Of a DNA stretch of 48,858 bases, positions 25,758 to 34,551 are shown in pieces. The translations under genes were made by a program, and so were the position numbers. Under the pieces are notes generated by a model. It saw nothing but the letters and a program-made list of their open reading frames with translations, ran no database searches and was not told the origin of the DNA. Numbering within the stretch: position 1 is the stretch's first letter; every line of letters starts with the position of its first letter. Source of the stretch: Zetaproteobacteria bacterium (GTDB lineage: Bacteria > Pseudomonadota > Zetaproteobacteria > Mariprofundales > Mariprofundaceae); the NCBI GenBank assembly GCA_003228735.1, contig QIFG01000095.1, positions 1-48,858 on the forward strand, given 5' to 3'.

Positions 25758-25944
25758 GCCCTTTACAGGATATCTCAAAATCGACGATGATAGCCTCAAA
25801 TAGTGCTGAATATTCAAGGGGAGACTGAAACCCACCTTAGGGAAAGGCAAGTTACAGTCGGATAGTTGAATAACCTGGAGCCCGGATGGGAAGATAGCTT
25901 GATGATGATTGAGGGGTTGCAGGAAATGTCGTTGATTGGCAGAT

Positions 25945-25959: not shown

Positions 25960-27096
25960 TTGCTTCGTAAGACTGGTACGCTGATGGGCCTGGATATTGG
26001 ATCGAGCAGCATCAAGCTTATTGAGTTGATGCGGACTCCTTTCGGCTATGAACTAAGATCCATAGCCGTGATATCCCTGCCTCAGGGGGCGGTTGAAAGC
26101 ACGGTGGTAAAAGATTCAGCCGTCGTATTGCAAGCGCTGACAGATGCAATAGAAGTTGCGCAACCTTCGACACGAAAGGTGGCAATCTCCGTTTCAGGCC
26201 CGGCGGTCAGCATCAAACGCGTCAGTGTGCCAAGGATGCCCCATGATGATTTGCCGGCCTACATAAACAAGCGGGCGGGCAAATATCTGGACTGTGATAT
26301 CAATAAAGTGTTTTTCGATTATCAGATATTGGGAAACGTGGCGGATAATCCCACACAGCTGGATATTATTTTAGCCTCCTGCAAACGGGAGGTGGTTGAG
26401 CCATATCAGTCATTGCTCGGAAAGGCCGGGTTGCAGGCCGTGTGTTTGGATTATTCCGCGTTTTGCCTGGAAAATGCAGCCGAATTGATTCAAGGGCGCG
26501 CAACACGGGAATACCCCGATCCGATGGAGGATGTCCATGGGAAACGGTGGATGCGGAGGACCGCATTGTGGTTTGAAAAAAAGCGCATACCGATGCGCTG
26601 GTCTGAACATGCTGATGCGCTGGTCAACATCGGGGTTCATACAAGCGATATCAATATCCTGCAAAATGGGCACATGAGCTATGTGGCGGACTGCGCCTGT
26701 GGGGTCGAGAAGCTGACACAGGAAATCCAGCATTTTCATGACATGAACTATCAGGATGCGGAACAGATGGAGAGGATACGTTCCCCGGAGATCAATTCTC
26801 AGGCGCTGGAGGATTATTACGAAACACTTGCGGCAGGACTACAGCAGGCGTTTGAGGCTTATGCCGTTAAGCATGCGGCTCATCCCATCCAGAAGATTCT
26901 GGTCAGTGGAGGCGGCGCCCTTATCCCTGGTTTGGAGCATCAATTGGAGCAGCGGTTGGGAATCAAGACAATGGCGGCAAATCCATTCTCGACCATCAGA
27001 GCCAAGGCATCCCGTTTTAATGCTGGTTATCTGAGGGCCATCGGGCCAACGATGATGGTGTCCGTTGGCCTGGCCCTGCGGGGTTTTGACGAATGA
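25960..27096 (+). CDS. pilM: PilM-like actin-fold protein
   Basis: Cytoplasmic actin-like ATPase of the type IV pilus alignment complex, which binds the N-terminal tail of PilN. The phosphate-1 loop GLDIGSSSIKLIEL is at about residues 10-23; the later nucleotide-binding GGGALIPGLEHQLEQRLG is at about 313-330. A basic insertion of about 35 residues (around REYPDPMEDVHGKRW) stands before the DALVNIG block and is not usual for PilM. No pilO, pilP or pilQ follows; instead the next gene starts with a PilN-type tail. The start codon is taken as TTG. Function as PilM is inferred from fold and partner. Confidence 0.82.
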   Translation: MLRKTGTLMGLDIGSSSIKLIELMRTPFGYELRSIAVISLPQGAVESTVVKDSAVVLQALTDAIEVAQPSTRKVAISVSGPAVSIKRVSVPRMPHDDLPAYINKRAGKYLDCDINKVFFDYQILGNVADNPTQLDIILASCKREVVEPYQSLLGKAGLQAVCLDYSAFCLENAAELIQGRATREYPDPMEDVHGKRWMRRTALWFEKKRIPMRWSEHADALVNIGVHTSDINILQNGHMSYVADCACGVEKLTQEIQHFHDMNYQDAEQMERIRSPEINSQALEDYYETLAAGLQQAFEAYAVKHAAHPIQKILVSGGGALIPGLEHQLEQRLGIKTMAANPFSTIRAKASRFNAGYLRAIGPTMMVSVGLALRGFDE

Positions 27097-27148
27097 TGGG
27101 ATCAGGCATGTTTGGCAGGTTTTCCCGTATGCCGCCCAAGAGTACGCG

Positions 27149-27925
27149 ATGATCCGCATCAATATGTTGCCGCATGAAAAAGCGCTTCAAGTTCAACCGA
27201 GGTCTCCCGGCAAGTATTACTCTTTGGCTGTTGTATCAGTTGCTGCTGTGCTTGCGTTGGGCTGGTATATGAAATACATGACAAAGACTCCTGAGCCCGA
27301 AGAGGCAAAGTCCTTTGAAGTGGCCCAAGCTCCTGCATCACCAAAGCAGACGAAGAGAGGCGGGGTTCTGGCGTTTCCGGACGGGCATGAGAGCGAGGCT
27401 GTTCCCGCCGGGAGAAATATCCTGCATGAATCCAGGCCCGCCTCCCCTGAATCGCAGACTGTGGATAAAGCCGCTCTGGAAGCTGCCGATGTTAAAGATA
27501 AAGTGATGGCGCAGACCCAAGCTTCCATTGTTGAAGATCGTGCGCCGAAGACGGTTCAGGAAGTTGATATGAAAGCCAGTGACCTTAAGTCCGCCCTGAT
27601 GAGTGTAGAGGCATGGCGTCTGGCCTGGAGTGAGCGCGATGTCGATAGCTATTTTGCTGCCTATGGTGATAACTTTGTCCCATCAGGGCGTTTTGACTTG
27701 ATTGAGGAATGGAAGCGCTACAAACGACGTGTAATTTTGTCTAAAGTCTTTATCCATGTAAGCCTTGGCGATATCAAGGCTGATTTGCTTGAATCGGGGC
27801 GACATGTTGCCGTGCGTTTTTTGCAGCAGTTCAGCTCCGATAGCTTCAGTAGCGAAAATGAAAAGGAACTTGTTCTCGAGAAAGGCGATAATGGGTGGAA
27901 AATTGTTCGTGAGATCAGCAAATAG
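27149..27925 (+). CDS. PilN-type N-terminal tail fused to a periplasmic NTF2-like domain
   Basis: Not a recognised gene. The 258-residue protein begins MIRINMLPHEKA, which matches the MIxINLLP tail by which PilN docks on PilM. One membrane span follows (about 24-41), then a long low-complexity linker (about 42-150). The C-terminal domain from SVEAWRLAWSERDVDSY (about 151) to the end is NTF2/Cds6-like and shares AWR, W, DxDxY, F, DL, WxRYK with the C-terminus of the following L,D-transpeptidase. The ferredoxin-like domain of true PilN is absent. It follows pilM after 52 bases and overlaps the next gene. I infer an inner-membrane link between a PilM ring and the cell wall. Confidence 0.75.
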   Translation: MIRINMLPHEKALQVQPRSPGKYYSLAVVSVAAVLALGWYMKYMTKTPEPEEAKSFEVAQAPASPKQTKRGGVLAFPDGHESEAVPAGRNILHESRPASPESQTVDKAALEAADVKDKVMAQTQASIVEDRAPKTVQEVDMKASDLKSALMSVEAWRLAWSERDVDSYFAAYGDNFVPSGRFDLIEEWKRYKRRVILSKVFIHVSLGDIKADLLESGRHVAVRFLQQFSSDSFSSENEKELVLEKGDNGWKIVREISK

Positions 27926-29207
27926 AGTTTTACTTGGCCTGGCATTGGTCTGCCTGGGGCTGTATCCGGTTGAGGCTGCTTCCGGCCTGGATGCTGAGCA
28001 GAGCATTCGGGCATACAAGGAATTACAGGCCGGCGAGCACCCGGCTGTCCAGGCTTTGTCGCAGAATGAACTTGCTGTGCTCAAGGCGGTCAGCGCACTA
28101 AAGGCCGGCTGGCCCAGGCAGGCTCTCCAGATTTTACAGCAGGACGAAGTCTTAAAAAAGGATCCGCTTGCCGCCCTGATTGAGGCCGAAGCTCACCGCC
28201 GCCAGGCCCTGGATGCCGTAGCCCGGGCCGGAAGCTATATTCAGTCGTTGGATGCAAAGAAGAAGAATCTGGAAACGGCCGATCTGTCGCAGGATTTGAT
28301 CGAAGCAGAGGTGCGTCTGCAGGCCTTTGTCGATCAACTCGATGGCATTGATGGCGTCCCGTACGATTTACTTGCGCTTGCCAGCAATGTGCACAATGTG
28401 TTCATGGTTGATAAGGGGCGTTCGCGGATGTTTGTTTACGAGCGCGATGATTCCGGAAATTTTCAGCGAGTGGCGGATGAATATGTTGTCACCGGCGCCA
28501 AGGCTGGCGATAAGCAGTTTGAAGGAGATAAGCGAACGCCCAACGGTATCTACCGCTTTGTCGATAAGTTGTCCGGCTCCGGGTTGGACCGAAAGTATGG
28601 CCCCGTAGCTTTTCCAATCGATTATCCCAATTCCCTGGATCAGTTAAATCACAAAAATGGTAATGGTATCTGGATGCATGGCTTTGATGTTGGTGTCGGA
28701 CGCCGGCCGCCACGCGATACGCGCGGATGTTTTGCGCTACCCAATGATCGCTTGCAGGCAATGAGTCAACATGTGCGCCTTGGCGATAGCTGGGTTGTTG
28801 TCGGTGAGAACTTCGTATTTTCTGATGAGGATGCTCGCCAGCAGCAGCTCGATAATGTGCGTTCAAGTATTGATGCCTGGCGCAAGGATTGGGAGTCCCT
28901 GGATACAGACGCCTATATCAGCCATTACCATCCAAAATTCCGTGCCGGCAAGAAGGATTTGAAAGCCTGGCATCGCTATAAGAAGCGCATCAATCGCGGC
29001 AAGCAGTTTATTCAGCTTAAGCTCGATGATTTCACTATTATTCTCGATCAGAATCCGGCTGGATTTTCCCAGATGGTCGTGGCGGAGTTCGAGCAGGATT
29101 ACCGTTCAAATAACTATGCAGACCATACGCGCAAGCGCCTGTATCTGGCGCGAGATGAAAAAAACGAACCATGGCGTATCCTGATCGAGGAACAGATTCG
29201 GCCATGA
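27891..29207 (+). CDS. L,D-transpeptidase (YkuD) with C-terminal NTF2-like domain
   Basis: A periplasmic enzyme expected to form 3-3 cross-links in peptidoglycan or to attach a protein to it. The chosen ATG 27891 (AAAGG five bases upstream) gives a signal peptide (about 1-27, ending PVEAA) and 438 residues. A helical region precedes the YkuD domain (about 165-310). The active site is visible: His263 in IWMHGFDVG and Cys280 in RDTRGCFALPNDR. Residues about 325-438 are an NTF2/Cds6-like domain (DAWRKDWESLDTDAYISHY, AWHRYKKRIN) like that of the preceding protein. The start lies 35 bases inside the upstream gene, in another frame, so the two are probably co-translated. A GTG at 27909 is an alternative start. 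Confidence 0.9.
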   Translation: MGGKLFVRSANRVLLGLALVCLGLYPVEAASGLDAEQSIRAYKELQAGEHPAVQALSQNELAVLKAVSALKAGWPRQALQILQQDEVLKKDPLAALIEAEAHRRQALDAVARAGSYIQSLDAKKKNLETADLSQDLIEAEVRLQAFVDQLDGIDGVPYDLLALASNVHNVFMVDKGRSRMFVYERDDSGNFQRVADEYVVTGAKAGDKQFEGDKRTPNGIYRFVDKLSGSGLDRKYGPVAFPIDYPNSLDQLNHKNGNGIWMHGFDVGVGRRPPRDTRGCFALPNDRLQAMSQHVRLGDSWVVVGENFVFSDEDARQQQLDNVRSSIDAWRKDWESLDTDAYISHYHPKFRAGKKDLKAWHRYKKRINRGKQFIQLKLDDFTIILDQNPAGFSQMVVAEFEQDYRSNNYADHTRKRLYLARDEKNEPWRILIEEQIRP

Positions 29208-29219
29208 TGGCCGGCCGCA

Positions 29220-30338
29220 ATGAGTAAAAAAGAGGAATCAAAACCCGCTGGCCAGGTCAAGGACCATACCGCCAAGCGTATGCAGCAACTGGTGGAAGAG
29301 AACAGGCACCTGCGCCAATATGTTACTGAGGTCATGAGCCGTCTGCGTGAGAACGAGCGGCTGTTCTCACGCCTGTTTGAATTGGAAACAAGGGTGCTGG
29401 CCGCTTCCGATGTTGAGGTTTTGTGCTTTACCCTGCTCAAGAGTATGCGCGAGGATTTTGATCTGGATATGGCGCGCTTCTGGATCGATCAATCCGGTCT
29501 TGCCGCAGGGCGTCAGTTAACCTCGCTGTCAGACAATGATCTGGTCTGGCTTGATGGCGAGGAGATCAGGAAGGCGGGACTGGCCGGTAAGCGGGTTTGC
29601 CTGAAAAGCCTTTCGCCCAAAAGGAAATTTGCCTGGCTGGCGGCTCGCGATGAACATCTTGGCTCACTGGCGCTGCTTACACTTGGCGATCTGGATGCGC
29701 CTTTTGGCGTGCTCGGATTGGGCTCGGTGGATACGGATCGTTTTCGTCAGGATCAGGGCACGGACTTTCTGCAGCATCTGGCCCAGGTGGTCAGCCTGGG
29801 TCTTGAGAATGCGTTCTCGCGTGAACGGTTGGACAAGCTTGCCTCCAGCGACACATTGACGGGAAGCAAAGACATGCGTTTTTTGCAGCCTCACAGTCAC
29901 CAGCCACTGTCACAATGGTTTGGACGGGATATGAATGTGGCCTGCCTGTATATGGATGTGGATGGCTGGAAAGATGTTATTGAAAAGCAGGGCCAGAAGA
30001 GCGCCGATGATATGCTGATCAAGCTCAGTGAGATCGTACGCGCGCATATTCGCGAACGCGATCCTCTGATCCGCATGAATGGGGACGAATTTTCCCTGCT
30101 GCTGCCTGGCTGCACAAAGAAGAAAGCTACGGAAATCGCTTTGCGGATTCTGGAAGATTGCAAGGCGGCGAAGGTGGATGGGGAAGACATCGGCATCAGT
30201 ATCGGGCTCGCCTATTGTCCGGCGGATATAGAAATGCAGGTCAAAGAGCTGATCGAATCCGCAGATCAGGCCATGTATGTGGCCAAGGCGCTGGGTGGCG
30301 GGCGTCTGGAGTTGGCGGAAGACGGGGAATGCAGCTAG
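29220..30338 (+). CDS. DUF484 (GAF-like) plus GGDEF diguanylate cyclase domain
   Basis: A likely cyclic di-GMP synthase or sensor. Residues about 20-60 form a coiled coil, about 60-200 resemble DUF484/GAF (RLFSRLFELETRVLAASDVEVLCFTLLKSM, then a DxDxxRFW segment), and about 235-372 form the GGDEF domain. The signature reads NGDEF at 287-291, with Asn in the first position; related variants are often still active. DQAMYVAKALGGGR near the end is the usual closing motif. In Pseudomonas and relatives a stand-alone DUF484 gene lies directly before xerC; here the same position holds a DUF484-GGDEF fusion. Its end overlaps xerC. Confidence 0.85.
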   Translation: MSKKEESKPAGQVKDHTAKRMQQLVEENRHLRQYVTEVMSRLRENERLFSRLFELETRVLAASDVEVLCFTLLKSMREDFDLDMARFWIDQSGLAAGRQLTSLSDNDLVWLDGEEIRKAGLAGKRVCLKSLSPKRKFAWLAARDEHLGSLALLTLGDLDAPFGVLGLGSVDTDRFRQDQGTDFLQHLAQVVSLGLENAFSRERLDKLASSDTLTGSKDMRFLQPHSHQPLSQWFGRDMNVACLYMDVDGWKDVIEKQGQKSADDMLIKLSEIVRAHIRERDPLIRMNGDEFSLLLPGCTKKKATEIALRILEDCKAAKVDGEDIGISIGLAYCPADIEMQVKELIESADQAMYVAKALGGGRLELAEDGECS

Positions 30339-32928: not shown

Positions 32929-32961
32929 GGAGTGGGCCAGTATCTGGCCTGGGAGACGGGA

Positions 32962-34551
32962 GTGAAATATCTATCAAGAAGTATAACGGCAGTTGGCCCC
33001 TGCTGTTTAATCCTGATTGGGGCAATCTTTCTTGCTGGCGCAGCCGCCGCGCAAAGTCAGGCAACATCCGCCGAGGAGATTGATTCTGCGAGCGCGGAGG
33101 AGCAAAAGCAGCCATCGGTTCTTATTGAGGACGGCCTGGCCGCCTTTCGGGCAGGCGACTTCGAGAATGCCTACAATCTATTGCTCCGTGGGCTGCCTTC
33201 GTTTCCGAATGATCTGATTGCGCATTACTTCGCGGGTATAGCCGCTCTTAACATCGGCAAGGCATCTGAGGCCAAGACCCTTTTCCAGACATCCATCGAA
33301 ATAGACCCCGAATATCTGGATGCCCATTATCAACTTGGCATTTTGCTGGTGAACGAAAAGAAAGATTACGAGCGTGCAATCAAGAGTCTGTCGCGTGTTT
33401 ATGCCAAAACTCCGAAACGTGAAAATCTCGGTTTCTTTCTCGGCCTGGCCCATTACGAGCTTGGCCAAACATCAGAAGCGCTCCGTTATTTCAATGAAGG
33501 CGTAGCCGGGGATGACGATATCAGGGGCCTGACTTCCTTCTATACGGGCATGATCTATCTCAAGCAGGAGCAAAAGGAAAAGGCTCTGGTTGCATATCAG
33601 CAGGTGAAATCCATTGATTCGGCCTCGCCCTGGGCAAGGGAGTCCGAGCGGATTGTTGCATCCATTCTTGCAGGCAAGCCGCCAGACGAAAAGCCATTCC
33701 GCATTTCGCTGGCCTACAAGATTCAGTCCGACACCAACGTCAATCTTTCGCCCACGGAAGCCATCACGGGGGTTGAACCGAAACGGAGCGGCGCCACCTC
33801 CATTATATTCCTGCATGGGGAATACGACATTATCCGTACCAACACATGGGGCCTGACCGGCACCTATTCATTGCTGGACTCGGAACCTCATGTGGCAGGC
33901 GTGGAGCGCATTCAGGATCACACGGGCGGGCTGGGCCTTTCAAGGGCAGGGCTTTTCGGAGGCAGAGGCGTTGCCAGGCTGAATGGTTCCTTTGAGTTCC
34001 TGAGCGGGGATAACCAGAAACGACTGGTATCCTACAATGTGCTTCCATCGTTTACCTTCCACACGAACCGGAACAACATGACCATCGTTCGTTACGGCCT
34101 CACGAGCACGAACTTTTCAAGCGATCCGGCAAACACGGCGGATCGCCGCGATAATACACTGCACGAACCCGGCATCCTTCACTTCATCCATTCGGGAGAT
34201 TTCGCCCATTATGTACAGGCCGGCTACACCTACGCACAGCAAAGGGCGAAAGGCGATAACTGGGATTACCATGCCAACCGGTATGTGCTTGGCGGCCAGT
34301 ATTCATTTGCGAGAAACTTGCGGCTGAATGCCTACGTGAACTACGCCAGAATCCGGTATGACAACGAGAATAATATCTTCGGCGTTTTCCGCCGCGACCG
34401 GCAGACAGATGTCAGCCTGATTCTTTCACGGGATTTGAATGACCACTTCACCTTAACCGTGGATGGCCGCTTCACGAGAAACAACTCAAATATTGATCTT
34501 TACAAATACAGGAAGTATGTCGCATCCGGCGGCATCACATGGTCTTACTAA
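32962..34551 (+). CDS. TPR plus beta-barrel outer-membrane protein
   Basis: Predicted outer-membrane protein of about 529 residues. A signal peptide covers about residues 1-32 (LILIGAIFLAGAAAA). TPR-like repeats follow (about 55-230: AFRAGDFENAYNLLLRGLPSFPNDLIAHYFAGIAAL, LDAHYQLGILLV, FFLGLAHYELGQTSEALRYF). The rest (about 245-529) alternates like beta strands (FRISLAYKIQSDTNVNLSP onward) and ends in the aromatic ITWSY expected for barrel assembly. The layout recalls Slam-type surface lipoprotein exporters (TPR plus DUF560), but I cannot confirm that family. The start GTG 32962 follows GGGAGACGGGA; a GTG at 32932 is a weaker choice. A small secreted-protein gene follows. Confidence 0.75.
   Translation: MKYLSRSITAVGPCCLILIGAIFLAGAAAAQSQATSAEEIDSASAEEQKQPSVLIEDGLAAFRAGDFENAYNLLLRGLPSFPNDLIAHYFAGIAALNIGKASEAKTLFQTSIEIDPEYLDAHYQLGILLVNEKKDYERAIKSLSRVYAKTPKRENLGFFLGLAHYELGQTSEALRYFNEGVAGDDDIRGLTSFYTGMIYLKQEQKEKALVAYQQVKSIDSASPWARESERIVASILAGKPPDEKPFRISLAYKIQSDTNVNLSPTEAITGVEPKRSGATSIIFLHGEYDIIRTNTWGLTGTYSLLDSEPHVAGVERIQDHTGGLGLSRAGLFGGRGVARLNGSFEFLSGDNQKRLVSYNVLPSFTFHTNRNNMTIVRYGLTSTNFSSDPANTADRRDNTLHEPGILHFIHSGDFAHYVQAGYTYAQQRAKGDNWDYHANRYVLGGQYSFARNLRLNAYVNYARIRYDNENNIFGVFRRDRQTDVSLILSRDLNDHFTLTVDGRFTRNNSNIDLYKYRKYVASGGITWSY

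Follow-up and report, generated by a model that had tools for sequence, protein, structure and literature searches.

The window analysed here is a stretch of 48,858 nucleotides from a zetaproteobacterial draft genome (assembly GCA_003228735.1, contig QIFG01000095.1), which is 1.88 Mb in size, 95.6% complete and 0.06% contaminated. The Zetaproteobacteria are a class of iron oxidisers. As the original prediction described, positions 25960-29207 of the window hold three consecutive genes on the + strand: a PilM-family gene (PilMx), a gene for a protein that joins a PilN-type tail to an NTF2 domain (MID), and a gene for a YkuD-NTF2 enzyme, whose start overlaps the 3' end of MID by 35-68 bases. Pilus genes other than the pilM-type and pilN-type pieces are absent from the locus and the gene order pilMNOPQ is not seen; a search of the locus for PilO, PilP and PilQ found none. 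The canonical pil operon of the genome is located elsewhere, on contig C8, and has pilM followed directly by a pilN that starts MIRINLLPH.

PilMx (25960..27096, + strand) was assigned from family profiles and a structural model, with the start chosen from the sequence. The likely start codon is the TTG at 25960, which is preceded by a GGAAGG site; an alternative TTG lies at 25936, and the stop is at 27096. Its identification as a homologue of the actin-like PilM of type IV pili was borne out by a full-length profile match (Pfam PilM_2, 198.6 bits, cut-off 27; TIGR01175, 208.2 bits, cut-off 133) and by the PilM fold of the AlphaFold2 model (pLDDT 88). The top Foldseek matches of this model are all PilM structures (TMt 0.86 for 5eou_B and 0.89 for 2ych_A), and TM-score ranks the PilN-containing structures 5eou and 2ych first, possibly as a bias of the predictor. 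Alignment with canonical PilMs revealed a basic, aromatic insertion of about 30 residues (26494..26607, + strand) that is specific to PilMx and separates one half of the actin fold from the other. The model has low pLDDT at residues ~192-220 and places a helix at residues 204-215. A membrane-binding helix was considered for the insertion and dropped, the hydrophobic moment having no stand-out peak inside it.

The genome encodes two full PilMs, of which PilMx, the second, is about 46% identical to the canonical copy. It falls among the PilMs of the class on a long branch, and a sister relationship to the PilM of its own genome was not rejected (p-AU 0.52) in a tree built without long outgroups; the tree with long outgroups lacked resolution. 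All 12 positions that are invariant across 33 aligned PilMs are retained in PilMx, including G325-G326, but 20 of 60 class-invariant positions are lost, against 0-2 in most canonical copies, a pattern expected of a copy freed from its pilus partners. Nine of the 20 losses lie at residues 89-148, which probably belong to region 1C, close to the cleft that binds the tail, and they may affect how strongly a tail would be docked. A search of the GTDB r220 contigs with PilMx alone returned no relatives. Strongly diverged PilM homologues occur in three other genomes (L084 in G006:C25, L092 in G054 and L093 in G060), near no listed Cds6_C gene.

MID (27149..27925, + strand; 258 aa; profiles and model) begins with the PilM-docking-type tail MIRINMLP (27149..27172), which is followed by a single membrane helix at about residues 25-44 (27221..27280; from hydropathy, helix 31-44 in the model), expected to be oriented N-in/C-out. 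A flexible linker rich in Ala, Glu and Pro, of about 95 residues (~45-140; 27281..27568; low pLDDT and composition), leads to the NTF2 domain (27569..27919; PF24125, Cds6_C, 65.6 bits). The architecture proposed for this protein from the bare sequence was thereby recovered in full. Further Pfam families up to E = 1 are absent from MID except for SnoaL_3 over the NTF2 stretch, the Pfam scan detected no TPR in it, and an NCBIfam scan gave zero matches. The modelled NTF2 domain has a pLDDT of 92-98 and its best structural matches are Bd1075, Csd6 and Pgp2; the prediction of single structures, suggested beforehand as a check, came out in favour for both PilMx and MID.

The tail was compared with 27 canonical PilN heads of the class, in which the first 8 residues are almost invariant. 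MID keeps 7 of these 8 and also matches its own PilN at H9, but over the following 16 residues (9-24) it shares only 2, against a mean of 7.2 of 16 between canonical heads and that PilN; the PilN-invariant R10 and R14 are lost. The match of 7/8 to a near-invariant motif, together with the adjoining pilM gene, argues that MIRINMLP is more than a chance resemblance, and its conservation next to so divergent a stretch is the pattern that selection for PilM docking alone would leave. A phmmer search of the PDB with the bare tail yielded only repeat artefacts with designed TPR proteins. Beyond the tail, the periplasmic coiled coil and the ferredoxin-like PilO-pairing domain of PilN are missing. With an NTF2 domain in place of the PilN periplasmic fold and no PilN family match, MID is not a PilN.

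The third gene (27858..29207, + strand; profiles and alignments; alternative start 27891) encodes an LD-carboxypeptidase-type YkuD enzyme with a signal-peptide-like segment at the N-terminus. The YkuD catalytic domain (28398..28802; 54.9 bits, alignments) contains H274-G275 and, in the motif TRGC, C291; H274 and C291 are invariant in 11 relatives and align with H157 and C174 of Pgp2. These are the catalytic residues first reported as His263 and Cys280, a numbering which is valid for the start at 27891 and becomes H274/C291 from 27858. The enzyme aligns over both domains (residues ~180-445) to Bd1075, Csd6 and Pgp2 with E-values of 9e-29 to 5e-32, and by these nearest relatives it is a predicted LD-carboxypeptidase of the Csd6/Pgp2/Bd1075 type. 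This family sets helical or curved cell shape. In Pgp2 the NTF2 pocket binds peptidoglycan and the domain is required for that binding (PMC8038945), while Bd1075 needs its NTF2 domain to be directed to the convex face (PMC8938487).

The NTF2 (Cds6_C) domain of the enzyme (28857..29192, + strand; 89.5 bits) has the same pocket residues as that of MID. The relationship between the two domains, claimed initially from a few shared motifs, was confirmed by the occurrence of PF24125 in both and by BLASTP (E = 2e-13, 30% identity over 122 residues); the domain has two copies in this genome among the matches listed. The equivalents of Pgp2 Y233, F242, K257 and K307 are 4/4 in the enzyme and 4/4 in MID, where they are Y168, F176, K192 and K239. 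The C-terminal Glu expected to match Pgp2 E324 is invariant and found in both domains, which makes E255 of MID its probable counterpart.

In related genomes the gene order is proA nadD rsfS rlmH envC ctpA, deacetylase, slot, enzyme, GGDEF, xerC, and this synteny is intact on both sides of the locus described here. The slot, between the polysaccharide deacetylase gene and the enzyme gene, is occupied in relatives by a secreted signal peptide-TPR-NTF2 protein. In some of them a gene for a membrane protein, DUF502-like, accompanies the deacetylase gene. The GGDEF gene of the window (29220-30338) is a DUF484-GGDEF fusion with an NGDEF motif and adjoins xerC; across the class the gene after the enzyme gives a match of similar length. 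Most of the class has a TPR-NTF2 gene before the carboxypeptidase gene, as have bacteria of Beta-, Gamma- and Desulfobacterota type. Two zetaproteobacterial genera have no partner gene at the slot, so the enzyme can do without a partner.

When GTDB r220 was scanned with the enzyme alignment, 80 loci were obtained, which belong to Zeta-, Beta- and Gammaproteobacteria, Desulfuromonadales, Desulfovibrionales and, in one record, to what is titled Chloroflexi. Of the 80, 72 contain two or more NTF2 genes and 67 a gene with both TPR and NTF2; a PilM within 4 kb was found in none (0/80). In the Desulfuromonadales type the partner is a single protein with a protein-kinase-like domain, a membrane helix, TPR and NTF2 (L198:2201-4318, L251:2264-4318 and similar). 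The HRD/DFG catalytic motifs of the kinase-like head look degenerate by eye, and the head is possibly a second cytoplasmic coupling of the same module. The variety of partners identifies the NTF2-LD-carboxypeptidase pair as a widespread module, the partner of which is able to acquire heads of several kinds. It is this conserved pair with its changing heads that gives the finding its reach, and no description of a TPR-NTF2 and LD-carboxypeptidase-NTF2 gene pair was found in the literature searched.

The PilMx-MID arrangement occurs in 1 of 78 genomes of the class, the slot being without a PilM in the other 77. Here the partner adjacent to the enzyme ends in Cds6_C, as elsewhere, and has no TPR head; a search of the genome for such a head gave only a generic match of 23.7 bits. 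By sequence comparison the head of the partner was swapped in this lineage: the signal peptide and TPRs are gone, and a second, diverged pilM and a pilN-like 5' end stand in their stead. Class-wide and phylum searches found no second PilM beside Cds6_C among the matches listed, and comparison by eye of the places of PilM and Cds6_C revealed no shared neighbourhood elsewhere, likewise among the matches listed. The original prediction had named the absence of such neighbours from all other genomes as grounds for giving it up, and a conserved system of the three genes is not supported: a PilM stands next to the NTF2 protein in this genome alone among those searched. Wide conservation is seen for the NTF2-NTF2 gene pair itself.

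The reading favoured here, with a probability of about one half, is that a duplicated PilM, working apart from the pilus, anchors at the inner membrane an NTF2 protein that binds peptidoglycan, next to an enzyme that trims the wall. Duplication within the lineage would have brought a pilM and a pilN 5' end to a place before the NTF2 gene, where they replaced its secretion signal and TPR head and gave a bitopic product. In the cytoplasm the dedicated copy PilMx would grip the PilN tail of MID; canonical PilM could be the binder instead. The one helix of MID would span the inner membrane and the linker would bring the NTF2 domain with its peptidoglycan pocket to the wall, where it may bind stem peptides near the enzyme with the same pocket. 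Next to MID, the periplasmic LD-carboxypeptidase would trim tetrapeptides to tripeptides. PilMx would cluster or position its NTF2 partner and thereby local wall trimming, which might be concentrated or excluded where MID is clustered. The likely outcome would be that the wall is edited locally or the cell curved, without the pilus proper taking part. Against this reading stand the occurrence in one genome, which gives no comparative case for selection on the combination, several PilMx substitutions in residues 89-148, and the two genera that have the enzyme but no partner gene at the slot.

The best-surviving alternative, although an improbable one, makes MID a pilus accessory, whose tail competes with PilN for canonical PilM or recruits PilMx into the pilus ring, the NTF2 domain anchoring the machine to peptidoglycan or opening the wall. 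PilM rings do dock PilN tails (PMC13039148, PMC5285504), a canonical pil operon is present in the genome, and the tail of MID matches that of its own PilN, H9 included. However, MID lacks the ferredoxin-like fold needed for pairing with PilO, a dedicated and strongly diverged PilM adjoins it, and the locus, devoid of further pilus genes, is syntenic with the wall-editing pair.

Somewhat less probable again is a direct pairing of the two NTF2 domains, with MID anchoring the enzyme to the membrane or activating it instead of binding peptidoglycan. NTF2-like folds often dimerise, and the genes for partner and enzyme are adjacent and share the domain in many classes. Both domains retain the peptidoglycan pocket residues, however, and the fusions of the domain to SurA, LptD, SPOR and Lcl_C in relatives fit a general wall-binding module better. 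The dimer of Csd6, moreover, forms through a domain other than NTF2 (PMC8038945).

The arrangement is still less likely to be a relic of rearrangement, in which a duplication brought in pilM and the pilN 5' end and the resulting fusion is either neutral or in decay. Its restriction to one genome in 78, the long branch of PilMx and the loss of a third of the class-invariant positions (20/60) would all suit a relic. Against this, both frames are intact despite an identity of only ~46% between PilMx and its own PilM, the tail was selectively retained amid the turnover of its surroundings, and the pocket residues and fold of the NTF2 domain are preserved. That the enzyme is an L,D-transpeptidase making 3-3 cross-links, which the NTF2 protein would position, as first supposed from its YkuD family membership, is very unlikely, since its closest solved full-length relatives over both domains are LD-carboxypeptidases, which favours trimming over cross-linking, and the loops of Pgp2 are reported to leave room for one stem peptide only (PMC8038945).

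Compared with known systems, the enzyme resembles Csd6 of H. pylori, Pgp2 of C. jejuni and Bd1075 of Bdellovibrio in its YkuD domain, C-terminal NTF2 and pocket residues; in the literature searched neither an NTF2 partner gene nor a PilM is described with them, whereas here a partner with the same domain lies next door. With the TPR-NTF2/LD-carboxypeptidase pair the locus has in common its position, the enzyme and the NTF2 domain of the partner, and differs in the head, which there is a secreted TPR or, in loci of the Desulfuromonadales type, a kinase-like domain in the cytoplasm followed by TM and TPR, and here is a PilN tail. Type IV pili likewise combine an actin-like PilM with an MIxINLLP tail on a bitopic protein, but have the PilN periplasmic domain and PilO/PilP/PilQ where MID has NTF2 and none of these. 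PilM and PilN are also reused outside the pilus in the PilMNO-derived FcpMNO flagellar cage of Campylobacterota (PMC11870540), where FcpN, unlike MID, still has FcpO as a partner and works for the flagellar motor. In FtsA-FtsN the bitopic protein likewise acts on wall enzymes, and its short cytoplasmic tail is bound by an actin-like protein in the same interdomain cleft (PMC7613929). That system belongs to division and regulates synthesis, not trimming, and its mode of binding in the cleft differs from that of PilN. FtsN itself carries a SPOR domain. CcmA-Csd5 of H. pylori consists of unrelated proteins, a bactofilin and SH3 rather than PilM and NTF2. By analogy, FtsA-FtsN (PMC7613929) and CcmA-Csd5 (PMC9507126) are the nearest working parallels and FcpMNO (PMC11870540) the nearest reuse of PilM. 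The initial statement that no system of this form is described has to be qualified, as these three share parts of the logic; the locus is a new combination of the logic known from FtsA-FtsN and CcmA-Csd5.

A wider proposal is put forward tentatively and ranks below the favoured reading: an actin-like scaffold built on PilM and no longer tied to type IV pili may position peptidoglycan trimming through a bitopic PilN-tail/NTF2 adaptor, as an undescribed wall-editing or cell-shape module and one of several cytoplasmic couplings acquired by the widespread NTF2-LD-carboxypeptidase pair, the kinase-like head being found elsewhere. The authors of the Bd1075 study state that they know of no mechanism by which one lateral wall is targeted (PMC8938487). 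For the placement of trimming enzymes of the Csd6/Pgp2/Bd1075 type on one side of the cell, a widespread partner that shares their NTF2 domain, and in some cases is probably coupled to a protein in the cytoplasm, offers a concrete starting point for tests. The locus also clearly shows PilM and a PilN tail reused without a pilus, which complements the FcpMNO cage; with the PilM version in one genome, the claim stays modest.

Three further features were recorded. In some of the GTDB loci (L198:5694-6473, L203, L211, L216, L222, L225) a third NTF2 gene, downstream of the enzyme, is an Lcl_C-NTF2 fusion. Within the class, envelope proteins that are unrelated to one another carry the Cds6_C NTF2 domain, which is fused to SurA-type chaperones, lies inside LptD and is fused to a SPOR protein (L134-L136, L138, L140; L139). 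Positions 32932-34551 of the window encode a TPR protein whose C-terminal region resembles an outer-membrane barrel (DUF2860/SlipAM matches).
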